A DNA stretch of 21,495 bases from a virus. Positions 2,730 through 21,054 of this stretch are shown here, in pieces. Under the pieces are notes generated by a model. That model made no database searches, was not told where the DNA came from, and worked only from the letters and a program-made list of their open reading frames with translations. Every line of letters begins with the position of its first letter. The first letter of the stretch is position 1. The position numbers and the translations under genes were made by a program. The stretch spans positions 1-21,495 of the IMG/VR virus record IMGVR_UViG_3300047550_005328. The stretch is one strand, 5' to 3'.

Positions 2730-2835
2730 GTCGGCGTGGAGGAGAGTTGAGTGCGCGGTCCATCTCTTCGTCGGTCGGCTCCGGGAACCACTCAACGAGC
2801 TTGCTGAAGAAGCGTTGCAGCTGCTCAGACGCCAC
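2719..2835 (-). CDS. Overlapping 38-aa small protein between VRR-NUC and primase
   Basis: Small gene with a GTG start inside GTGGCGTCTGA, which contains the stop of the VRR-NUC gene, and an end inside ATGCCCGTTGA, which contains the primase start. Both junctions are 11-base overlaps, so the three genes would be translationally coupled. The peptide begins VASEQLQRFFSKLVEWF and continues with an acidic stretch (PEPTDEEMDRAL) and a basic end (RRHAR), so it looks like a real helical, charged protein and not an antisense shadow. It fills the gap left if the primase begins at 2729. I do not recognise it. It could be a small primase/helicase accessory factor, or an N-terminal piece split from a larger protein. 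Confidence 0.55.
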   Translation of the reverse strand: MASEQLQRFFSKLVEWFPEPTDEEMDRALNSPPRRHAR

Positions 2836-3196
2836 GGAACGGTTCTGTCGCAATTTGCAATGCGTCGTTTGTGGAGCGAACAATGCCAGAGATGCCGCCG
2901 GCTGATCGGATGTGCTCGATGAAGCGGCGCTGCTCTGGGGTGGCGCGACCGGTTGCGGTCTTGACCTCGAGGGCGGTGAAGACGGCGACTTTACGGCCGA
3001 CCATGTCTGGGGTGATCTCGATGGTGCGGTAGCCGATGAGGTCGGAGCCACCGGGGGAGGCGACACCGAACTGGACCCAGCGGCCGGTGCGGGGGTCGGG
3101 GAGCTTGCCGGAGTTGTTTCGCCAGAGGCGGAAGCCGTGAAGAGTGCCAACTGCGAGACGGATCCGTTGCTGGATCTCGGTCTCGATGTTGGCCAT
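2825..3196 (-). CDS. VRR-NUC domain nuclease
   Basis: Small stand-alone nuclease (123 aa) of the VRR-NUC branch of the PD-(D/E)XK superfamily, a typical length for phage members. Visible motifs are an N-terminal E in IETEIQQ, a RNNSG segment at 26-30, GGSDLIGY with Asp52, and ALEVKTATG with Glu77 and Lys79. These are followed by a TPEQRRFIEHIRSAGG segment characteristic of the family. It probably cuts structured or branched DNA during replication or recombination. It sits between the SF2 helicase (25 bases upstream) and the small gene that overlaps its stop codon, and phages commonly pair this nuclease with an SF2 helicase. Start ATG at 3196, with a GGAGCC sequence upstream but too distant to be a clear ribosome site. 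Confidence 0.85.
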   Translation of the reverse strand: MANIETEIQQRIRLAVGTLHGFRLWRNNSGKLPDPRTGRWVQFGVASPGGSDLIGYRTIEITPDMVGRKVAVFTALEVKTATGRATPEQRRFIEHIRSAGGISGIVRSTNDALQIATEPFRGV

Positions 3197-3221: not shown

Positions 3222-4595
3222 TCATGCTGCGGTTCGCTTGCGCTGCCGCGCCGCGAGGATGTGCCGCGCCCAGCCTTCGGGGTACTTCATGCCGCGGCGG
3301 CGGCCGATCTCAATCAGCTGCTCGAGCGATTGCGCCCCAGCTTGTTCGCGATTCCGCTGACGCCGTAGAGCTGCTGGATCCACCTCCACCAGCTCGCCGT
3401 CGACCTGTTCAGGGCCTTGCGGCACTGTCTCCCGGACATATACGTGGCCACAGCAGGGGCAAACAGGAGCCGGAGCATGGGCGGCAAAGCAGGACGGACA
3501 TTCGCGAACAGCAGGGGGACTGCCGGCTCGCTTTGGTTTGGCATCCAGTGTCCACTCGCGTGGATCTTGCGGAAGGCCATGCGTAAAGACGCAACTGGCG
3601 TGATCTAAGACGATCAGATCGCGTTTGCCATTCGCTATTCGCAAACCACGACCGACTGACTGCAGGTACATGGTCAGGGACTTGGTGGGGCGCAGCAGGA
3701 TGACGCAGCCGATCTCGGGGCAGTCGACACCGGCAACCCAGAGGGCGCAGTTGCAGACGACGTCGATGGCGCCGGAGCGTAGGCCGGTGAGGGCGTCCTG
3801 GCGCTCCTGGCGTGTGGAGTTACCGGAGATGGCGACAGCGCGGTAGCCGGCAGCGGTGAAGGCCGCGGCGGTGTGCTCGGCGTGGGCGATGTTGACGCAG
3901 AAGGCGACAGCGGGCCGGCCGTGCGCGATGCGGCGGTAGTGGGCGACGGCATCACCGATGATCGATGGCCGGTCGACGGCCTCTGCGAGCTGAGCGACGG
4001 CGTAGTCGCCGGCCTGGGAGCGGATGCCGGTGAGGTCGGGCTTGGTGGGGGCGTAGTAGCGGATGGGTGCGAGCAGGCCCTCGGCGATGAGGTCACCGGT
4101 GGAGCAGGTGGGGATGATGAGATCAGAGACCTCGCCGAGGCCGCGACCGTCCAGCCTGCTCGGGGTGGCCGTAAGCAAAAGCAGCCTTGGGTTCCCGGCC
4201 TCGGCGACCACCTTCTTGTAGGTGTCAGCTACACAGAGGTGAGCTTCATCGATGATGATCAGGCTTGGCTTGGTGACAACCGGCCGGCGAACAGCGGTCT
4301 GCACCGAGACCACCTGGACCGGCTTGAAGGGGTTGCGGGGCATGCCGGCCATGATGAAGCCGTGCTCGATGCCGGCTTGTTCAAGGCGTCGGGCGGTGTC
4401 GTCGAGGATCTCGCGGAGGTGAGCGAGGAACCAGACGGTTCCGCCCTTCTCAATAGCGGATCGAATGATCTCTGCGGCGATAGTTGTTTTGCCTGCACCG
4501 GTGGGAGCGACCAGGCATGGCGCTTTGTAGCCGGCAGCATAAGCAGCGCGAAGATCCGCGATGGCCTTGGCCTGGCGAGGACGAAGCTGGATCAT
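3222..4595 (-). CDS. SF2 DEAH-box DNA helicase with zinc-ribbon tail
   Basis: Superfamily II helicase (457 aa) of the RAD25/SSL2-like phage type, expected to unwind or translocate on DNA during replication. Visible motifs in order: Q-like RPRQ at 6-8, motif I PTGAGKTT at 31-38, motif II DEAH at 116-119, motif III TATPS at 142-146, and motif VI QSVGRGLR at 312-319. A Cys4 knuckle follows at C366/C369 and C379/C382. The C-terminus has repeated Arg/Gln and a basic end (RQRKRTAA). Its ATG overlaps the stop of the preceding gene (ATGA at 4592-4595) and is preceded by GGAG, so translation is coupled to that gene. It is upstream of VRR-NUC and the primase-helicase in the same operon. Confidence 0.93.
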   Translation of the reverse strand: MIQLRPRQAKAIADLRAAYAAGYKAPCLVAPTGAGKTTIAAEIIRSAIEKGGTVWFLAHLREILDDTARRLEQAGIEHGFIMAGMPRNPFKPVQVVSVQTAVRRPVVTKPSLIIIDEAHLCVADTYKKVVAEAGNPRLLLLTATPSRLDGRGLGEVSDLIIPTCSTGDLIAEGLLAPIRYYAPTKPDLTGIRSQAGDYAVAQLAEAVDRPSIIGDAVAHYRRIAHGRPAVAFCVNIAHAEHTAAAFTAAGYRAVAISGNSTRQERQDALTGLRSGAIDVVCNCALWVAGVDCPEIGCVILLRPTKSLTMYLQSVGRGLRIANGKRDLIVLDHASCVFTHGLPQDPREWTLDAKPKRAGSPPAVRECPSCFAAHAPAPVCPCCGHVYVRETVPQGPEQVDGELVEVDPAALRRQRNREQAGAQSLEQLIEIGRRRGMKYPEGWARHILAARQRKRTAA

Positions 4596-5251
4596 CGCTC
4601 CGACCTCCGCTGTTGCTGATTAAAAACGCGCTCGATTGACCAGCCGCGATCTAAGCGGTGCTTGAGAGCGGCGTAGGAGTAGCCAGTCTCTCTAGCCCAG
4701 TCGGCAATCGTCTTTGTCTCACCGTTGTAGGTAATCCAGCGATTGCGGGTCGTGTTGTTCATCTGGACGATTGCGTCGACGAACCGACAGTTCTCAGGGC
4801 AGTAGTCGCCATTTACGTCCATGCGATCAATTTGCAGATCGGGGGCGGCGCCGTTCTCGATGCACCACTGATAAAAACGCTTTCGACCGGCTGGCCCTAT
4901 CCAATCGTCGCAGACGCGGATTCCCCTGCCTCCGTAGTGCGAATAGCGCTCGCTACCAGGGTCGTAGCAGCGCCGGAGCATGTTGCCGTAAGCGTGCTTC
5001 AGCTTTTGACGCAGCTCTGTCGGAATCCAGTTGTTGCGACTCCTGTGCTGCTCGCAGTTGGCTCGCGCTTGATCCTTTGATCCGCACCCGCAGCTCTTGG
5101 TCGAGCCGTAGCGCAAGACCGCCCCGCGGACGATGGTCTGCTTGCCGCAAGAGCACTGGCAGAGCCAGTGAACGCCGTTGTTGCTGTGGGCGCGTTCGGC
5201 GACGCGCAGCCTCCCGAACACTTGGCCCGTGAGGTCGATTGCTTGGCCCAT
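4592..5251 (-). CDS. HNH/AP2-associated zinc-finger DNA-binding protein
   Basis: Protein (219 aa from this ATG) of a phage family whose members begin with IDLTGQ-FGRL, carry a cysteine cluster (here C31, C33, C35, C54, C56), and then a core with MLRRCYDP, HYGGRGIRVCDDW, IDRMDVNGDY and PENCRFV. The C-terminal part (NGETKTIADWARETGYSY...GWSIERVF) resembles a helix-turn-helix module. Homologues are often called hypothetical, AP2-like or HNH-related, and may be homing endonucleases or degenerate derivatives; I see no standard HNH triad. An upstream ATG at 5311 would add 20 residues. I prefer 5251 because family members start close to the IDLTG motif and the longer start lies inside the palindromic control region. 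It is the first gene of the leftward operon and coupled to the helicase by ATGA. Confidence 0.7.
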   Translation of the reverse strand: MGQAIDLTGQVFGRLRVAERAHSNNGVHWLCQCSCGKQTIVRGAVLRYGSTKSCGCGSKDQARANCEQHRSRNNWIPTELRQKLKHAYGNMLRRCYDPGSERYSHYGGRGIRVCDDWIGPAGRKRFYQWCIENGAAPDLQIDRMDVNGDYCPENCRFVDAIVQMNNTTRNRWITYNGETKTIADWARETGYSYAALKHRLDRGWSIERVFNQQQRRSER

Positions 5252-5298
5252 AAAACCGTGATCGCGGTTTGATGGTAGCAAGGGCGTCAAGCTGTTGG

Positions 5299-5340
5299 CC
5301 GTTACTTGCATGGGTCTTGACCTGAAGCGGTCAGTAACGG
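5299..5340. promoter_or_regulatory. Inverted-repeat operator between divergent operons
   Basis: CCGTTACT at 5299-5306 is repeated inverted as AGTAACGG at 5333-5340. Nested within are GGTC-TT-GACC (5313-5322) and GACC-6-GGTC (5319-5332), so several alternative hairpins or a protein-binding dyad are possible. The element lies between the leftward replication genes and the rightward recombination genes and covers the -35 and spacer of the proposed rightward promoter. This is the expected place for a repressor that controls both directions. The dyad is directly visible; its operator role is inference. Confidence 0.5.
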
Positions 5341-5345
5341 ATAAA
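5317..5345 (+). promoter_or_regulatory. Sigma70-like promoter for the recE-recT-ssb operon
   Basis: TTGACC at 5317-5322 is a good -35 hexamer (five of six to TTGACA). GATAAA at 5340-5345 is a weaker -10 (four of six to TATAAT), with a 17-base spacer. Transcription would begin near 5352 and read into the exonuclease gene. It is embedded in the inverted repeat at 5299-5340, which supports a regulated promoter. No equally clear leftward promoter was found. Confidence 0.45.
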
Positions 5346-5373
5346 AGAAAAAGCCCAGCAATCCTAAGGGCTT
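5341..5373 (-). terminator. Intrinsic terminator-like hairpin on the minus strand
   Basis: On the minus strand AAGCCC (5373-5368) and GGGCTT (5356-5351) form a 6-bp stem followed directly by a T-rich run (TTTCTTTTAT). This is the form of a rho-independent terminator for leftward transcripts. Nothing leftward-coding lies immediately to its right, so it may block antisense read-through into the replication operon or act as an attenuator of a leftward leader. Read rightward it would be a hairpin at the very 5' end of the recombination-operon transcript. Confidence 0.5.
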
Positions 5374-5423
5374 AGCCGTGAAAAGTCGTGAAGTGCGAAG
5401 AATTACAACAGGAGACCGCGAAG

Positions 5424-6293
5424 GTGCGTGAAGAGACGGTAAGGTTGCGCGAGACACGCGTTGGCATGACCCTTACCAATGCCGAGTACCACGCTCGGCC
5501 AGAGGTCTCGAAGTCAGGGCTGGACATGGTCCGCCGCAGCCCACTGCACTTCTGGAACCGCTACCTCAACCCTGATCGCATCATCGAGCCACCGACAGCT
5601 GCGATGACGATCGGCTCAGCGCTGCACACGCGGGTGCTGGAGCCGCACCTGTTCGACGACGAGTATGCAGTGGCACCGCACTGCGATCGGCGCACGAAGG
5701 AGGGCAAGATGATCTGGGCGGATTTTGAACAGGAAGCGGCTGGCAAGACACTGCTGAAGGCCGAGGATGCGCTGCAGATCACTGCGATGGCGGATTCACT
5801 GCGCCGTCACCCGGCGGCCAGGGTGCTGCTGAACAAAGCCGGCAAGGCAGAGCAGTCTTACTTCTGGACTGATGATGAGACCGGCGAGAAGTGCAAGTGC
5901 CGGCCGGACTTCCACACGGACGATCGACGGATCATCGTCGACGTGAAGACCACTGAGGACGCCAGCCCTGGCAAATTCCTGCGCAGCTCGGTGCTGCAGT
6001 GGCGGTATCACGTCCAGGCAGCGTTCTACATGCAGGGCGTGCCCGAGGCTGAGCTGTTCTTGTTTGCGGTTGTGGAGAAGAAGCCGCCGTTCGCAGCTGC
6101 GGTGTACACGCTGCCGACCAAGCTGGTGGAGCGCGGCCTGGAGGACGCCCGGGCCGACCTTCGGTGCATCGCTGAATGCCGGGCTGCCGATCGGTGGCCG
6201 GGCTACGGCGACGAGGTACAGGAACTCTCGCTGCCGAAGTGGCTCGAGGACGATCGAGCTGTTGACCTTATCTCTGAAATCGAAGGTTTCTGA
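5424..6293 (+). CDS. RecE-like PD-(D/E)XK exonuclease
   Basis: Probable 5'-3' double-strand exonuclease of the RecE C-terminal/YqaJ-like group. It would resect DNA ends to give single strands for the adjoining RecT-like annealase. Visible features are EYHARPEVSKSGL and a SPLHFW motif near the N-terminus, GSALHTRVLEP with the conserved histidine, then CRPDF followed eleven residues on by DVK. The catalytic residues are D162, D173 and K175 from this start, and a later WRYHVQAAFY contains the helical Gln motif. The frame is open from a GTG at 5388. I use the GTG at 5424 because GGAG at 5411-5414 lies nine bases upstream. The ATG at 5466 (MTLTNAEYHA) matches where homologues usually begin and is the main alternative. 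The extra residues are charged and helical. The stop overlaps the next start in TGATG. Confidence 0.87.
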   Translation: MREETVRLRETRVGMTLTNAEYHARPEVSKSGLDMVRRSPLHFWNRYLNPDRIIEPPTAAMTIGSALHTRVLEPHLFDDEYAVAPHCDRRTKEGKMIWADFEQEAAGKTLLKAEDALQITAMADSLRRHPAARVLLNKAGKAEQSYFWTDDETGEKCKCRPDFHTDDRRIIVDVKTTEDASPGKFLRSSVLQWRYHVQAAFYMQGVPEAELFLFAVVEKKPPFAAAVYTLPTKLVERGLEDARADLRCIAECRAADRWPGYGDEVQELSLPKWLEDDRAVDLISEIEGF

Positions 6294-6949
6294 TGTCTAA
6301 TTCGCTCACGACCACCACCAATGAGGGTGTCTTCACCGGCATCCAGCAGTTTGAGAACGCCCAGCGGATCGCCAAGGCACTGGCCAGCAGCCAGCTGGTG
6401 CCGAAGGAGTTCCAGGGACAGCAGGGACTGGCGAACGTGCTGGTGGCAATGGAGATCTCGGGCCGGATGGGCCTGAGCCCGCTCCAGGTTATGCAGAATC
6501 TGCATGTGATCCATGGCCGCCCGTCATGGAGCAGCCAGTTCATTATTGCAACGATCAACGGCTGCGGCCGGTTCACGCCGCTGGATTACAACATCACCGG
6601 CGAAGGCGATGGCATGGCGTGTCAAGCTGTCGCAACCGAAATCGCAACAGGCAAGGAACTGAAGGGTCCGACCGTTTCTATCGCGATGGCGAAGAAGGAA
6701 GGTTGGTACAGCAAGACCGGCTCTAAATGGCAGAGTTTCCCAGAACTGATGCTGCGTTACCGTGCGGCAGCATTCTGGGGCCGGGTGTACGTGCCTGAGT
6801 ATCTGGTTGGCATGAAGACGCAAGAAGAAGTGATCGAAATTGAAGCGGTGGACGTTTCAGAAGCAAAGAAAGGCAAGCCTGCGATCGTTGAAGAGATCAA
6901 CGCGCAGATAGAAGAGACAACGGGGGAAATGGATGACACAGTCTGGTAA
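6293..6949 (+). CDS. recT: RecT-like single-strand annealing protein
   Basis: Protein of 218 aa with the features of RecT-family recombinases: an N-terminal segment on availability/selection (AMEISGRMGLSPLQVMQNL), HGRPSWSSQFIIA, a central SIAMAKKEGW, and the conserved PELMLRYRAAAFWGRVYVPE followed by GMKTQEE. It would coat and anneal the single strands made by the exonuclease just upstream, the classic RecE-RecT pairing. The acidic C-terminus (EEINAQIEETTGEMDD) is common in such proteins. It starts at the ATG in TGATG that overlaps the exonuclease stop, and its own 3' end overlaps the next gene by 17 bases. The protein is shorter than E. coli RecT (269 aa) but within the range of phage members. 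Confidence 0.85.
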   Translation: MSNSLTTTTNEGVFTGIQQFENAQRIAKALASSQLVPKEFQGQQGLANVLVAMEISGRMGLSPLQVMQNLHVIHGRPSWSSQFIIATINGCGRFTPLDYNITGEGDGMACQAVATEIATGKELKGPTVSIAMAKKEGWYSKTGSKWQSFPELMLRYRAAAFWGRVYVPEYLVGMKTQEEVIEIEAVDVSEAKKGKPAIVEEINAQIEETTGEMDDTVW

Positions 6950-7148
6950 CTACTTGACGCCACGCGAACTCGCTGAGCGTTGGCGTAATGTTGTGAGCCT
7001 GTCGACCTTGGACAACTGGCGATCACAGCAACGTGGTCCGCGATGGTTCAAGGCCGGGGGTCGGGTGCTCTACCCGATTCACGAAGTCGTCCAATTCGAG
7101 CAGCGCAACATGCGCGGCTTTCCCAACACCATCACCGGAGAACGATGA
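6933..7148 (+). CDS. Excisionase/MerR-type helix-turn-helix protein
   Basis: Small DNA-binding protein (71 aa). Its sequence LTPRELAERWRN...STLDNWRSQQRGPRWFKAGGRVLYPIHEVVQFE has the order of AlpA/excisionase-type winged HTH proteins: a recognition helix, a wing containing GPRWFK..GRVLYP, and a closing helix. It could regulate the divergent promoters near 5300, or serve as an excisionase for the integrase that survives only as a remnant at 16406-16711. Position inside the recombination operon, with a 17-base overlap to recT and an ATGA overlap to the next gene, favours co-regulation with recombination. Confidence 0.75.
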   Translation: MTQSGNYLTPRELAERWRNVVSLSTLDNWRSQQRGPRWFKAGGRVLYPIHEVVQFEQRNMRGFPNTITGER

Positions 7149-7396
7149 ATCGCATCACTGCCGAGCAGGCCCTTGCTCAGACCGGCCGCCAGTCGAAGAC
7201 AGCTCCGCTGCGCAACGAGATCCTGGATCTTGAGCCCGGTGAGGCCGTCGAGGTGACTTTCGACGAGTTCAAACCGACCACGATCGCCCAGGTAGCCGGT
7301 AACCTGAGCCGCCGCGACACCACCCGCCGTTACTCGGTGCGGAAGCGTCGCGATGGCGCCGGCTGCTTCGTCATCTGCCAACCCCGTAACGATTGA
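7145..7396 (+). CDS. Small conserved-looking protein upstream of ssb
   Basis: An 83-aa protein starting MNRITAEQALAQTG, with acidic/hydrophobic DLEPGEAVEVTFDEF and a basic C-terminal half (NLSRRDTTRRYSVRKRRDG), ending FVICQPRND. The alternation of short beta-prone strands and basic turns suggests a small nucleic-acid-binding fold, but I do not recognise a family. Its ATG overlaps the preceding stop in ATGA and the SSB start lies two bases after its TGA, so it is translated with the recombination genes. Confidence 0.75.
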   Translation: MNRITAEQALAQTGRQSKTAPLRNEILDLEPGEAVEVTFDEFKPTTIAQVAGNLSRRDTTRRYSVRKRRDGAGCFVICQPRND

Positions 7397-7398
7397 TC

Positions 7399-7824
7399 AT
7401 GTTCAACGGAACCCTTACCGGCAACCTGGGCCGAGATCCCGACTTCCAGACCACGCAGTCTGGCCAGATGGTGGCGAAGTTCTCGCTTGCCGTTCGCCAG
7501 CCCAAGAAGGACGCACCTGCGTTCTGGGTCAAAGTGGAGGTCTGGGGCAAACAGGCCGAGTACGTCGCCAACTACTTGAAGAAGGGCGCCAGCGTTTGCG
7601 TCACCGGACAGGTGGCGGAGGAGACCTGGAACGACAAGAACACCGGCGAGCTCAAAAAGGCCGTCGTGATCAAGAACGCCTCCGTGGAGAGCTGGCAGGC
7701 TCGAGCCGAGCAGGCACCTGCTCCTACGCCCGCTCCTCGTCCAGCACCAGTTGTGACGGTCGCTGCTCAGAGCGTCGCTGATAATTTCGCCGGTGACGTC
7801 ATCAACGACGACATTCCCTTCTGA
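7399..7824 (+). CDS. ssb: Single-stranded DNA-binding protein
   Basis: SSB of 141 aa with an OB fold. It begins MFNGTLTGNLGRDPDF and includes AKFSLAVRQ, FWVKVEVWGKQAEYVANYLKKGASVCVTGQV and WNDKNTGELKKAVVIKNASVE, the standard SSB strand order. It is followed by a Pro/Ala-rich linker and the acidic tip NDDIPF, which recruits partner proteins in bacterial SSBs. It would protect single strands made during replication and by the RecE-like nuclease. ATG at 7399 is chosen over the TTG at 7393. An intrinsic terminator follows at once. Confidence 0.95.
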   Translation: MFNGTLTGNLGRDPDFQTTQSGQMVAKFSLAVRQPKKDAPAFWVKVEVWGKQAEYVANYLKKGASVCVTGQVAEETWNDKNTGELKKAVVIKNASVESWQARAEQAPAPTPAPRPAPVVTVAAQSVADNFAGDVINDDIPF

Positions 7825-9596: not shown

Positions 9597-9775
9597 TCCA
9601 TCAGCAGGAGCTCTAGCCGGGCGATCTCGTTGACCGCCTGCTGGAGCTGAAACTGCTGCTGGCAGCACAGCCGGTAGAGCATCGCTGTGCGTGGATCCTC
9701 TTTGCGGGCAGTGATTTCCACTTGCCACTTGTCTTCAGCCGTCATTTCAGCCTGCAACCATCGACCGAATTCCAT
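9572..9775 (-). CDS. Antisense-oriented coiled-coil small protein
   Basis: The only minus-strand gene in the small-gene train. The 67-aa sequence (DKWQVEITARKEDPRTAML, then CCQQQFQLQQAVNEIARLELLLMD) is a convincing amphipathic helix with coiled-coil character. The plus-strand alternative across the same bases is Ser/Cys-rich and unconvincing. From ATG 9775 it begins head-to-head with the plus-strand gene at 9774, sharing CATG. An internal ATG at 9745 has an AGG six bases upstream and may be the true start, giving 57 aa. No family recognised. Confidence 0.65.
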   Translation of the reverse strand: MEFGRWLQAEMTAEDKWQVEITARKEDPRTAMLYRLCCQQQFQLQQAVNEIARLELLLMDYPRRSQS

Positions 9776-10271
9776 GGATCAACGGGAAGAGGACTTGTCC
9801 ACCGTAGGCAGCGGTGTCTGTGGCCATCAAAACAACAGGATTGTTTCCACTGGTCTGAATTATGACGGCACCAGGTACAAGGTTCGCTTGTGCAAGGACT
9901 GCGGCCACCGCTGGATGGAGGGCCGCGTCTATGCGCAGCGCCGCAAGCTGTCGGACGAGGACGTGCTGGAGATTCTCGCGACGCCACGCACGGTATCGGA
10001 CAGGATCATGGCCGAGCGCTTTGGTGTGAGCCGGGAGGCGGTGCGCCAGGTGCGGGCAGGGTTGATCCACGCGACGGTGGCCGCTGAAATCGATCGATCG
10101 CAGGCTGGGCGGCTGTGCAGCAGCTGCTCGTTTTTCGACCTCGAGGATGGCTGCCTGATGCAGTTTCCAGATTTTGAGGAGCTCGGGCCGGCGTTCGCCA
10201 GGGAATGCAACGCCTATGTAACGAGTTGCGACAAGCCGGCTGCGTCACCCAGCGCCGGCAGCCAAGATTGA
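9774..10271 (+). CDS. Zinc-ribbon/HTH DNA-binding protein with a four-Cys module
   Basis: A 165-aa three-part protein. Part 1 (about 13-50) is a C/H-rich ribbon, with C16, H18, C40 and C43 around a strand pair ending CGHRWMEGRV. Part 2 (59-100) is a helix-turn-helix: LSDEDVLEILATPRTVSDRIM then AERFGVSREAVRQVRAGL. Part 3 (115-148) is CX2C-X8-C-X17-C with a Pro, Gly and FA between, ending C145-N-A-Y, and it is shared with the product of 15047-15385. This arrangement points to a DNA-binding regulator or nuclease accessory. No ribosome site is visible before ATG 9774. The frame is open upstream to 9687, but that part overlaps the minus-strand gene and reads as its shadow. Confidence 0.75.
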   Translation: MDQREEDLSTVGSGVCGHQNNRIVSTGLNYDGTRYKVRLCKDCGHRWMEGRVYAQRRKLSDEDVLEILATPRTVSDRIMAERFGVSREAVRQVRAGLIHATVAAEIDRSQAGRLCSSCSFFDLEDGCLMQFPDFEELGPAFARECNAYVTSCDKPAASPSAGSQD

Positions 10272-11178: not shown

Positions 11179-11438
11179 AGCGCCTCATGAGCGACAAGGA
11201 CTACTACCTGTCGATGGCCAACCGGCCGCTGCCGAAGGGGAAGTTCAGCAAGTACCGCGGGGTGCAGAAGAATACAAATCCCAAGAAGCCGTATCGCGCT
11301 GCATTCCGGTACAAGGGCAAGCAGTACATGCTCGGAGCGTTTGAAACCGAGATCAAGGCTGCGCTTGCGTACAACAAGGCAGCGCTGGCGGTGATCGGTG
11401 AGTACGCGCTGCTGAATGAGGTGCCGAGTGATGAGTGA
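11175..11438 (+). CDS. AP2-domain DNA-binding protein
   Basis: An 87-aa protein with a stand-alone AP2/ERF-like domain: SKYRGVQKN, YRAAFRYKGKQYMLGAFETE, AALAYNKAAL and a closing IGEYALLN. This is the three-strand plus helix order found in phage homing endonucleases and plant transcription factors. There is no nuclease domain, so it may be a DNA-binding regulator or the remains of an HNH-AP2 endonuclease. The GTG at 11175 follows GGAGG (11163-11167) by seven bases and overlaps the previous stop (GTGA). ATG 11187 is an alternative. Confidence 0.85.
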   Translation: MKRLMSDKDYYLSMANRPLPKGKFSKYRGVQKNTNPKKPYRAAFRYKGKQYMLGAFETEIKAALAYNKAALAVIGEYALLNEVPSDE

Positions 11439-15707: not shown

Positions 15708-16052
15708 TCACTCTATGGACTGGTTGATCCATTCGTGGATGACCTGGGCCCTGATCTCGGAATAGAACGGTTGAGACTCAAACCACGGCAGCCAGTCGTG
15801 GTGCTGCTTGTGGGCATTGCACGCCAGGCATGCCGGCACCAGATTGCGTCGGTCGGTGGTGCCGCCCTTCGCCTTGGGTACGACGTGATCAAGGGTCGCC
15901 GAACGGCCTAGGTACTCATTGCAGTACGCGCACTTGTAGTCCCACCTGAGCAGGATCTGGTCACGGAACCGGAGCTTCGCCTCCTTCCTCGGGATCAACT
16001 CCGTCTCCGAAATCTGGTGATCCACCTGGCTCCTGGGGTAGGGGAAAGGCAT
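15708..16052 (-). CDS. HNH endonuclease
   Basis: A 114-aa HNH nuclease. Visible motifs: RWDYKCAYC with C41 and C44, LDHVVPKAKGG with D55 and H56, N70 in RRNLVPACLACNAHK, C75 and C78, then H81. All HNH residues and the zinc cysteines are present, so it should be active. It may be a homing nuclease or a packaging-associated cutter. No terminase gene is in view, so homing is as likely. The frame overlaps the next gene upstream by 92 bases. The first 20 residues may therefore not be used, and a GTG at about 16025 would shorten the protein. Confidence 0.85.
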   Translation of the reverse strand: MPFPYPRSQVDHQISETELIPRKEAKLRFRDQILLRWDYKCAYCNEYLGRSATLDHVVPKAKGGTTDRRNLVPACLACNAHKQHHDWLPWFESQPFYSEIRAQVIHEWINQSIE

Positions 16053-16194: not shown

Positions 16195-16319
16195 GGGCGC
16201 CCCGGACAAGGTCCTTGGAAACGGTAGCCAGCAGTACCGCTGCCCAAGGTTTTCTTTGGGATCACTGCGGGATTGGGGTGCGCGAATAGTGCGCGAACGG
16301 CCGCTGGCACAGCACTGGC

Positions 16320-16405: not shown

Positions 16406-16711
16406 GACTTCTCCATTCTTGCTTCAGACGAAGAGTTGAAGCGGCTCATAGCCGCACTGGACACGTTCCCCACCACGCCACTGCAGTGGCGCTTCGCTCA
16501 GCTGGTGAAGCTGTTGCCGTTGGCTGGGTGCCGCCTGAATGAGATCTGCTCTGGCAGATGGGAATGGCTCAACGAGAAGGCAGTTGTTCTGGTGATTCCG
16601 AGAGAGTGTCACAAGACCGGCAAGAAGACCGGCAAGGATCGGGTCGTGCATCTTCCTCCTGCAGCGATTTGCATCCTGAGAGAGTTGAGACTCAAAACGA
16701 ACTCAGAATGA
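16406..16711 (+). pseudogene. Tyrosine integrase catalytic-domain fragment
   Basis: The frame from just after a TAA at 16403-16405 reads ILASDEELKRLIAALDTF, PTTPLQWRFAQLVKLLPLAGC then RLNEICSGRWEWL, VVLVIPRECHKTGKKTGKDR and VVHLPPAAICILRELRL. That is the start of a tyrosine recombinase catalytic domain with the first catalytic Arg (RLNEI) and the beta-hairpin Lys (KTGK). It then stops at 16709-16711, before the HxLR, H/W and Tyr motifs. There is no ATG; TTG at 16436 is the only start. I read this as the remains of an integrase, cut at both ends. It is flanked by an AT-rich stretch at 16320-16405. Confidence 0.75.
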
Positions 16712-16752
16712 ATTATCGCAGGTCGGGCAGATGAGCGCTTGATCAGCGCCGA

Positions 16753-17064: not shown

Positions 17065-17792
17065 GGCGCCAGCCGTGCCTTGTGCAGGCGGGTTTTCTCG
17101 TACCAGGCGGCAATGTCCGGCGCCCAGATCGCGAACGGCTTCATCATCAGATCGCACAACGCCTGAATCTCAGGCTGAGCGTCGGCCTTGGCCCGCAGAT
17201 CGAGGAAGTGCATCAGCGCCCGCATGCTGAACGACACCACGAAATTCTGGCGGAAGTCGAACGGCAGGATGCCGCGAGCGTGCTCTTCGGCGTAGCCGGC
17301 CTTGAGCATCTCTCTGTACTTCCAGGCAGCAGCGTTGCACCAGTCCAGGTCAATCCCTCGCTGGTAGTCGCTGTAGGTGTACCGCTTGCCCTGTCGGTCG
17401 CGGTATTCGCCAACCGGGCGCAGGTAGAACACGTCCTCGATGTCCAGCTCGCCGGCGGCGGCCCGCACAATCCGCTCGCCGGTGTAGCGCATCGACTGGA
17501 CGTCAAAGCTGATACCCACGCGATGCGTGCGTGCCTGCTGCATCACCGAATGCGGGAAGCCGGCAGTCGCCAGCGTGATGCTCGGGTGCTCGAGCGGGCC
17601 ATAGTGGCCGCGCTCACCGGCCAGCAGGTGCTTGACCACCAGCTCGCCGGCTTTGCGCTCCTCGGGAGCCTCGCAGTCGAGCACCGATCCCTCGAAGTAG
17701 TCGGTGTGCATGGCCCGCCAGATGGTGGTCTGCGCTTCAGGCGTCCAGGTGAGGGCACCGACGCGGAAGCGAGGATCGATCAGGCTTCCCAT
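17061..17792 (-). CDS. thyX: Flavin-dependent thymidylate synthase ThyX
   Basis: A 243-aa ThyX that makes dTMP from dUMP with methylene-tetrahydrofolate, FAD and NADPH. Visible features are HYGPLEHPSITL (67-74) and R88-T-H-R91-V-G-I-S-F-D-V-Q-S100-M-R102-Y103. This corresponds to the RHRX7S signature, but with eight residues between Arg and Ser and without the usual Asn-Glu. LPFDFRQNFVVSFSMRALMHFLDLRA gives the C-terminal dUMP and FAD contacts. The overlap with the dCTP deaminase gene is 13 bases. dCTP deaminase supplies dUTP, and so dUMP, to ThyX, and the dNMP kinase at 14490 could use the dTMP. Confidence 0.93.
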   Translation of the reverse strand: MGSLIDPRFRVGALTWTPEAQTTIWRAMHTDYFEGSVLDCEAPEERKAGELVVKHLLAGERGHYGPLEHPSITLATAGFPHSVMQQARTHRVGISFDVQSMRYTGERIVRAAAGELDIEDVFYLRPVGEYRDRQGKRYTYSDYQRGIDLDWCNAAAWKYREMLKAGYAEEHARGILPFDFRQNFVVSFSMRALMHFLDLRAKADAQPEIQALCDLMMKPFAIWAPDIAAWYEKTRLHKARLAP

Positions 17793-20553: not shown

Positions 20554-21054
20554 ATGCCAAATTTTAGGCCGCTGCCGCCGATCTGTCGGCTGCGCGAAAT
20601 TTTTCAAATCGATGCGAGCTGCCCAAGCGGCCTGCGGAATCTCAAGACCCGTGGGCGATTAAGGGCAGGACTGCCAGCTGGCAACAAGAGTACGTTTTAC
20701 TGGGTCGTTGGAATTGACGGCGATTACTTCAATGTCCAGCGCATCGTTTACGCAATTCACTATGGCACCGATCCGGGCGATAGTCTCGTGGATCACATCA
20801 ATAGAGACAGGTTTGATAATCGCGCAAGCAACCTTCGCCTAGTTGACCACGCTTTAAATGCAGTAAACTGCGGTGTCTACGCGCACAATACGACTGGAGT
20901 CAGGGGCGTGAGCTACAACAAGCGCGACAGGGTGTACTACGCTCAAATTAAGCTCAATCAAAAGGTTAGACACCTAGGCAGCTTTGCGACTGTCGAAGAG
21001 GCGGCAAAAGCAAGAAAGGCTGCCGAGCTTCAGTACTTCGGGGAGAACTGCTAG
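20554..21054 (+). CDS. HNH homing endonuclease with AP2 domain, antisense insertion
   Basis: A 166-aa protein on the strand opposite to its neighbours. The N-terminus (LREIFQIDASCPSGL, YWVVGIDGDYFNVQRIVYAIHYG) leads into an HNH core: D80-H81-I-N83, D88-N89, SNLRLVD, N102. The residue usually His in VHR is Gln62 (NVQRIVYA), a deviation. The C-terminus is an AP2-like domain (TTGVRGVSYNKRDRVYYAQI, RHLGSFATVEEAAKA). HNH-AP2 genes are mobile in phages. Its TAG stop overlaps the stop of the convergent basic protein in the palindrome CTAG (21051-21054). Local base composition is AT-richer than its neighbours. Confidence 0.88.
   Translation: MPNFRPLPPICRLREIFQIDASCPSGLRNLKTRGRLRAGLPAGNKSTFYWVVGIDGDYFNVQRIVYAIHYGTDPGDSLVDHINRDRFDNRASNLRLVDHALNAVNCGVYAHNTTGVRGVSYNKRDRVYYAQIKLNQKVRHLGSFATVEEAAKARKAAELQYFGENC

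Follow-up and report, generated by a model that had tools for sequence, protein, structure and literature searches.

Direct repeats common to an operon junction and to attachment-type sites in an uncultivated phage family: possible operators of an excisionase-type protein

Introduction

Operators of an excisionase that also regulates transcription are a known kind of element. In phage 186, Apl is reported to have seven 6-bp operators, 10-11 bp apart, lying between two face-to-face promoters, and five at attP (PMC7498355). RdfS of the element ICEMlSym-R7A, a winged-HTH excisionase, is reported to bind both attP, upstream of the integrase gene, and its own promoter (PMC11963761).

The DNA analysed here, called the window throughout, is a whole stretch of 21,495 bases, positions 1-21,495 of the IMG/VR virus record IMGVR_UViG_3300047550_005328. 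Between two divergent operons it carries a control region whose layout is, by analogy, of the phage 186 Apl/P2 Cox operator type. It is proposed, with a probability of about 0.64, that an excisionase-type protein acts at repeats of both attP and this divergent replication/recombination control region.

Results

A conserved junction between replication and recombination operons

To the left of the junction lies a helicase-primase operon and to its right an exonuclease-RecT-HTH-SSB operon. The leftward gene set consists of a DNA primase (141-2795), a VRR-type nuclease (2825-3196) and the helicase (3222-4595, minus strand; phrog_16, E 7.9e-99), the first ancestral gene of the leftward replication operon. 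The rightward operon opens with an exonuclease VIII-like gene (5424-6293, plus strand; phrog_412, E 1.4e-96 over residues from 5466; Pfam DUF3799), which is followed on the same strand by a RecT-like annealing protein (6293-6949; phrog_561, E 3.2e-73) and a 71-aa HTH_17 protein (6933-7148), the candidate excisionase (recombination directionality factor, RDF) and regulator; the set also includes an SSB gene ending at 7824. The flanks of the divergent promoters are helicase/HNH and exonuclease, and no repressor gene adjoins them as in a lambda-type cI/cro switch. The window, which is a fragment, has no HTH_3 match; such a match is above cut-off in 5 of 14 phage records, the copy in G006 being about 6 kb away, in the leftward set.

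An HNH endonuclease gene (4592-5311, minus strand, with the HNH-like part at 4592-5251; phrog_374, E 1.3e-64) is inserted at the helicase start codon. Relatives that lack it begin their helicase at an ATG equivalent to window position 5311, and thus in the window and in loci L003 and L085 the HNH gene occupies the helicase start codon. In these three the HNH frame begins at what was formerly the helicase ATG (5311). The L003 and L085 HNH proteins are 76% and 70% identical to that of the window, and a mobile HNH gene seems to have been inserted here repeatedly. Three more endonuclease genes, of HNH or AP2 type, are present at 11187-11438, 15708-16052 and 20554-21054, making, with 4592-5251, four in 21.5 kb. 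Elsewhere, the product of 9774-10271 (165 aa) begins with a Cys-rich stretch and has an HTH-like part; identity among the relatives in which it was found is 30-88%, and searches of phrogs and Pfam gave no confident family for it.

Relatives were found by an exonuclease scan, a helicase scan and a junction pattern (14 stretches on 13 contigs, one of them a near-identical twin). The window and 12 further contigs that share the junction were aligned, giving 13 rows; L002, the window's near-identical twin, and L113, which has the same interval as L007, were left out before counting. L107 is identical to L085 in the junction and is counted in the 13 rows, not in the 12 distinct ones, and was excluded from the leader matrix. 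Loci L009-L081 (35-45% exonuclease identity), L092, L098 and others stand outside the alignment; the junctions differ in four of L009-L081 and in L093, L094 and L097. A contig from a gammaproteobacterial MAG also has the same interval as L007 and may be mis-binned.

Over 5312-5423 the 13 rows are 64-100% identical, and 50 of the 112 columns of this noncoding stretch are invariant. Fourfold sites nearby are invariant at a level of 7-9%: 4 of 59 in the exonuclease (13 sequences) and 13 of 149 in the helicase (12 sequences). The region is far more invariant than these sites and is therefore under selection as DNA or RNA, in agreement with the first-pass annotation of this DNA, which had described a compact divergent region between replication and recombination genes. 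Of 17 stretches upstream of helicases, all of about 230 bases except for one that is shorter, only L127 belongs to the family; the other 16, whose helicases are 43-63% identical, have no such region by eye.

A phased repeat array beside face-to-face promoter-like elements

On the plus strand, from 5375 to 5444, run seven degenerate direct repeats phased at 10 bp, with the core CGNKAA; this array is the proposed excisionase-type operator. It lies just outside the interval of the first-pass annotation and brackets the ribosome-binding site of the exonuclease gene. Its units are GCCGTGAAAA (5375), GTCGTGAAGT (5385), the weak GCGAAGAATT (5395), ACAACAGGAG (5405), which is without the core and holds the Shine-Dalgarno (SD) sequence, ACCGCGAAGG (5415), TGCGTGAAGA (5425) and GACGGTAAGG (5435). 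Five of the seven match the core well, with mean scores of 5.8 to 10.1, against -0.6 for unit 3 and -12.2 for unit 4. The SD (AGGAG, 5410-5414, located by eye) and the start codon of the exonuclease (GTG, 5424-5426, plus strand) lie between repeat units; the start codon is GTG in 11 of the 13 rows and ATG in 2.

The periodicity and its conservation are direct observations. In the window the array matches itself at a lag of 10 at 29 positions, compared to a shuffle mean of 17.1, and none of 1000 shuffles is as high. Every one of the 13 rows has the excess (at most 12 of 1000 shuffles as high), with 10 the best lag in 12 of them. Across the record, 17 of 21,425 overlapping 70-bp windows reach the lag-10 value of the leader, and a single place, 13962, goes above it with the maximum of 32. 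The CGNKAA pair occurs three times in the window, where 0.10 would be expected.

Immediately to the left of the array there is a rightward sigma70-like promoter, TTGACC-17-GATAAA (5317-5345, plus strand), with a predicted start at about 5352. TTGACC is present in all 13 rows and GATAAA or GATAAG in 12, with GATAGA in L090 and a spacer of 16 or 17. In a matrix scan of the 13 rows this is the best plus-strand promoter column, and only 0.03% of the scanned window positions score as high, on a matrix whose hexamer frequencies are approximate. Neither a promoter nor a terminator was reported for 4500-7500 by a simple scanner, whose misses follow from its requirement for a T at the last -10 position and for a loop of 3-8.

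Facing this promoter is a leftward -10-like element, TAGGAT (5361-5366, minus strand; family consensus TANNAT), with a predicted start at about 5354. It is the best minus-strand column; its T, A and final T are present in 13 of 13 rows, and an A at the fifth position in 12 (TATGCT in L008). No recognisable -35 for it was found by the matrix scan in the 13 rows. From sequence we infer that TANNAT may be the -10 of a leftward promoter facing the rightward one. The rightward promoter-like site and the facing -10-like element are thus both conserved, with predicted starts only, and the array is situated beside rather than between them.

Other conserved elements of the junction include an A/T tract and two short palindromic sequences. 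The palindrome TAAGNNCTTA (5365-5374) overlaps the leftward -10; on the minus strand all four of its pairs form in 12 of 12 distinct rows, with a single wobble pair in one of these rows, and it is possible that it is a site for another regulator. A GACC-N5/6-GGTC dyad (5319-5332) lies over the rightward -35, just upstream of the ancestral helicase start, again in 12 of 12 distinct rows: 11 are exact and one has a G-U, since a change to GGCC on the plus strand pairs only on the minus strand. The longer form TTGACC-N5/6-GGTC was considered as a repeated operator. Its copy counts are against this; it occurs once in 11 of 14 records, the two copies in G013 are that record's overlapping ends, G008 has one extra copy elsewhere and G007, which reads GGCC, has none.

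The main rival to the proposed reading concerns the sign of regulation: the array could be an activator site at which the HTH_17 protein switches replication on, by analogy with XisF4 of Pf4. A leftward -10 with no recognisable -35 in 13 rows would suit such a promoter, and the -35 position, 5384-5389, lies between the cores of unit 1 (5377-5382) and unit 2 (5387-5392). At the lambda promoter pRE the CII sites flank the -35 position. Further, XisF4 is reported to bind and activate both its own promoter and that of the initiator (PMC7379572). Against activation, Apl is stated to repress both its promoters (PMC7498355) and RdfS to have lowered its own promoter by about 54% (PMC11963761), and the array also covers the exonuclease ribosome-binding site, which suits repression. 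Activation is on balance unlikely, though it deserves serious attention.

The same repeats are found at attachment-type sites of relatives

Direct repeats spaced one per helical turn by early promoters suggested an excisionase-type operator, and a second array was therefore expected at attP. A matrix built from the leader units gave high-scoring arrays in 9 of 10 integrase regions (L184-L192); the exception is L183, in which the integrase is truncated. The pattern CGNKAAN4CGNKAA has 47 matches in the 14 phage records (604,934 bases), compared to 10 for the reversed control pattern. These are distributed as 29 at the exonuclease leader (one pair is counted twice because the ends of G013 overlap), 16 no further than 1200 bp from an integrase domain, 2 in G009 and none elsewhere; the two in G009 are about 330 bp from the fragment end and are accompanied by attP-type sequence. 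For three units in phase there are 11 matches, 6 at the leader, 4 at the integrase and 1 at the G009 end, and none for the reversed control. In these records the pattern is restricted to the leader and to attP-type places.

An integrase was found in 12 of the 14 records. All nine records with an integrase frame of at least 370 aa have phased pairs near its start. No phased pair lies near the truncated integrases of the window (G000), G001 and G002 (120-185 aa), nor is there a pattern match near the second integrase match of G013 (a 305-aa frame, 17288-17737). In eight of the nine loci the units are upstream of the first start codon; in L186 this holds only if a later integrase start is chosen, as was done here, since from the first start (464 aa) the array falls inside the 5' end of the frame.

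The search was also made in the opposite direction with a matrix of 28 attP units from nine relatives, none of the window's lineage. The window leader took ranks 1-3 among 42,952 two-unit positions (17.3, 15.2 and 14.7; next 11.1), a result to be read with the fact that the unit pattern was derived from the leader before the attP search and that a pattern close to it then served to choose the attP units. At 12 other loci the leader came first in 11; in L107 its own attP array was first.

In L184-L192 the phased units sit between a tRNA part and the integrase. ARAGORN found complete tRNA-Lys genes in L184, L185 and L192, on the far side of the outer arm-type pair; in the other six, 3' parts of a tRNA were read by eye. 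Pairs of TGCGCGAA 11 bp apart (once 12) flank both sides in seven of the nine loci; L187 has TGCGCCAA instead, and one unit is changed in L186. Judged on these features, the place upstream of the integrase looks like an attachment site, and the TGCGCGAA pairs would be integrase arm sites. The tRNA sequence at attP varies among L184-L192; the layout of the flanking sites is common to all.

In the window itself the integrase is broken (16430-16747), a 120-aa frame with a stop within the match, and attP and its arrays are gone; the link to attP thus rests on the relatives. What is left on the attP side is an arm-type-like TGCGCGAA pair, 11 bp apart (16279-16300, plus strand), preceding the truncated gene. 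The phage of L003 has an integrase piece of 171-185 aa. The window's lineage seems to have lost integration, and in both lineages the leader array is retained.

Alternatively, the array could be bound by the arm-binding domain of integrase, which would then be the regulator of the operon. In the attP arrays TGCGCGAA arm-type-like units are in register with the X-type units, and leader units such as ACCGCGAAGG are near the arm consensus; with a matrix of arm-type units, leader position 5415 ranks second in the window. That score is however only 0.9 (first 2.3), compared to 17.3 with the X-type matrix. Moreover, in G006 the arm-type sites have become TGCGCCAA while CGTGAA/CGGTAA units are kept in both the leader and the X-type sites at attP, which separates the two classes of site, albeit in one phage. 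The retention of the array by the window and L003 lineages despite a truncated integrase also speaks against this reading, and binding by integrase is improbable.

A further alternative is that the leader is simply conserved, with no regulator, the spacing being a by-product of constraint from the promoter, the ribosome-binding site and coding. The units are degenerate, and units 6 and 7 are in coding sequence. Against this, the 10-bp period differs from the codon period, the pattern is confined to the leader and attP-type places, and the GAA and GTA codons within units 6 and 7 are identical in 13 of 13 rows. A leader without a regulator is thus very improbable, and binding of the array by an excisionase-type protein is still preferred.

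A candidate for the binding protein

Each of the 13 related contigs searched has the HTH_17 protein that the window encodes at 6933-7148. The window's copy shares 83-99% identity with its homologues (12 sequences, alignment A5); the corresponding range for the exonuclease is 66-97%, with the distant L010 left out. All 12 homologues match phrog_66, "excisionase and transcriptional regulator", with weak E values (best 4.3e-5, window 3.2e-4), and HTH_17 is likewise found in 12 of 12, the window copy falling under the Pfam cut-off (23.4 vs 27 bits). NCBIfam gave no match for the protein, and a search of PDB sequences with the HTH_17 profile yielded no relative (one match, E 0.084).

A structural model predicted from the 12 sequences has the order helix-helix-strand-strand-helix of a winged HTH, at a mediocre mean pLDDT of 67.7. 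The first Foldseek match is the RdfS excisionase (8dgl) at E 0.22, none reaching E <= 0.001; BldC is second, and the first 12 rows also include Tn916 Xis, a putative excisionase and unrelated entries. With VIA-align the best row is the excisionase 8c3t at Z 5.0, which is not set apart from unrelated rows at 4.7.

No rival excisionase was found among the other window ORFs searched (10 in phrogs and 10 in Pfam, partly the same ORFs). The protein at 6933 is therefore, on family matches and gene position, the best candidate ligand of the repeats. The first-pass annotation had also named it as a candidate ligand, of an inverted repeat further to the left; the choice of candidate is supported, and its proposed site moves to the repeats.

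Four named phages, Persinger, PPpW-3, MQ-4 and Arya, encode an HTH_17 protein 43-50% identical to this one in the same gene order behind a divergent helicase, following genes in the exonuclease and RecT positions. In Persinger and PPpW-3 the stretch examined includes an annotated integrase. In none of the four does the attP-unit matrix find a clear array at the leader or attP, so their sites, if any, differ.

The dyad and hairpin of the first-pass annotation

That inverted repeat, CCGTTACT (5299-5306) and AGTAACGG (5333-5340), had been put forward as a bidirectional operator, together with a minus-strand terminator-like hairpin (5351-5373) attenuating the leftward operon. All the listed elements are where they were placed: both arms, TTGACC (5317-5322) and GATAAA (5340-5345), with a spacer of 17 nt and with GATAAA beginning on the last base of the dyad. 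The hairpin is also present, as AAGCCC (5373-5368), an 11-nt loop and GGGCTT (5356-5351), then a T-run.

The dyad is nonetheless at the level of chance. There are 24 perfect 8-bp inverted repeats with a gap of up to 40 in the window, where 20 first-order Markov simulations gave 19.5 on average, and such a dyad is present in 27% of 500 simulated 500-bp stretches. A look for it in related phages, the check the annotation had proposed, found the left arm in three places only: the window, the twin L002, and L003, where it pairs at 7 of 8 positions; it is missing from the other 11 rows. This arm sits within the HNH-inserted stretch, and the sequence of the right arm (AGYAANGG in most rows) falls in the promoter spacer. 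On the chance-level count and the lack of conservation the dyad is rejected as an operator. An unconserved dyad was one half of what the annotation had said would refute its reading, the other half being the absence of a transcript start near 5352.

A terminator or attenuator is similarly unsupported. The hairpin segment does not fold clearly better than its shuffles (44 of 200 fold equally well, z -0.77), and the innermost stem pair is kept in 3 of 12 distinct rows. In an alternative register the minus strand gives pairing in 86.9% of cells, some of it by wobble, which is no better than shuffles, and covariation does not exceed that of shuffles, 257 of 500 of which score as high by most measures. 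The RNAalifold consensus is weak (-6.93 kcal/mol), with one of ten pairs changed on both sides, and there is no Rfam match at E <= 1 in 5250-5480. The T-tract, a U-run in the RNA, is conserved. The loop contains the leftward -10-like element and is more conserved than loops need be, as expected if it holds a -10. Taken together, although dyad and hairpin exist, an operator at the one and an attenuator at the other can hardly account for this region.

Discussion

The sharing of units between leader and attP suggests that events at both places may be under the control of a single small protein of the phage. In the mechanism proposed here the region 5312-5423 would control the divergent replication (helicase, nuclease, primase) and recombination (exonuclease, RecT, HTH_17, SSB) operons. 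Its rightward and leftward promoters appear to be face-to-face, and their predicted starts (about 5352 and 5354) nearly coincide, so that one polymerase should exclude the other. The winged-HTH protein at 6933-7148 would be the recombination directionality factor and would bind the repeats head-to-tail. At attP it would direct excision; at the junction it would coat the area of the leftward -35 together with the exonuclease gene's leader, its SD and its start codon. By covering the exonuclease leader and SD it would repress its own operon and so tune replication versus recombination; by analogy with Apl and RdfS, one would expect the rightward operon to be repressed and the leftward -35 to be covered.

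More tentatively, and with somewhat more doubt than belief, it may be suggested that in these temperate phages the 71-aa excisionase is the master timer of DNA metabolism, a single switch both for excising the prophage and for whether replication or recombination genes are expressed, and that lineages such as the window's, having lost integrase, keep the array for the second task only. The filament that resets attP would then also coat the operon junction and close the ribosome-binding site of its own operon, and the same filament would decide which of the two mutually exclusive, face-to-face promoters fires.

From these comparisons the likely excisionase sites of an uncultivated phage family can be defined at the level of sequence, apart from those of integrase-arm type; comparison alone places such likely sites on an early control region too. 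Among the papers listed in literature searches, judged on titles and the opening of abstracts, none was found to describe an excisionase array at a helicase/exonuclease-recT junction.

Several known systems resemble this one in part. BldC of Streptomyces is a MerR-like protein of 68 residues that also binds direct repeats head-to-tail, but it is a developmental regulator and not an excisionase (PMC5859096). XisF4 of Pf4, also an excisionase, binds the promoter of the replication initiator gene as well as its own; unlike the arrangement here, it belongs to a filamentous phage, activates, and is divergent to the repressor C gene (PMC7379572). RdfS, the first, though weak, fold match of the candidate, lowers its own expression; its authors state that they could identify no consensus motif, whereas here the repeats are common to both places (PMC11963761).

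P2 Cox is likewise an excisionase that regulates face-to-face early promoters through att-like sites (PMC7498355); in contrast to P2, no repressor gene was recognised next to the region described here. The closest resemblance in detail is to 186 Apl as that source outlines it: six-bp cores in direct repeats one helical turn apart, of which seven lie in the early control region and others at attP, promoters that are face-to-face, here predicted ones, and a small HTH-type regulator and excisionase, here a candidate, encoded in an early operon (PMC7498355). The differences are that Apl acts between lytic and lysogenic promoters rather than at replication and recombination operons, that its gene is the first of its operon where the candidate gene is the third (PMC7498355), and that the present array is next to the leftward promoter and spans the ribosome-binding site of the exonuclease gene. 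What appears to be new is this location, at a replication/recombination junction and over the exonuclease ribosome-binding site, and the retention of the array where the integrase is broken. On this proposal the Apl/Cox idea would hold beyond the lysogeny switch, where replication genes meet recombination genes, and another lineage with a similar layout would be added, including members that keep the promoter array after the loss of attP.
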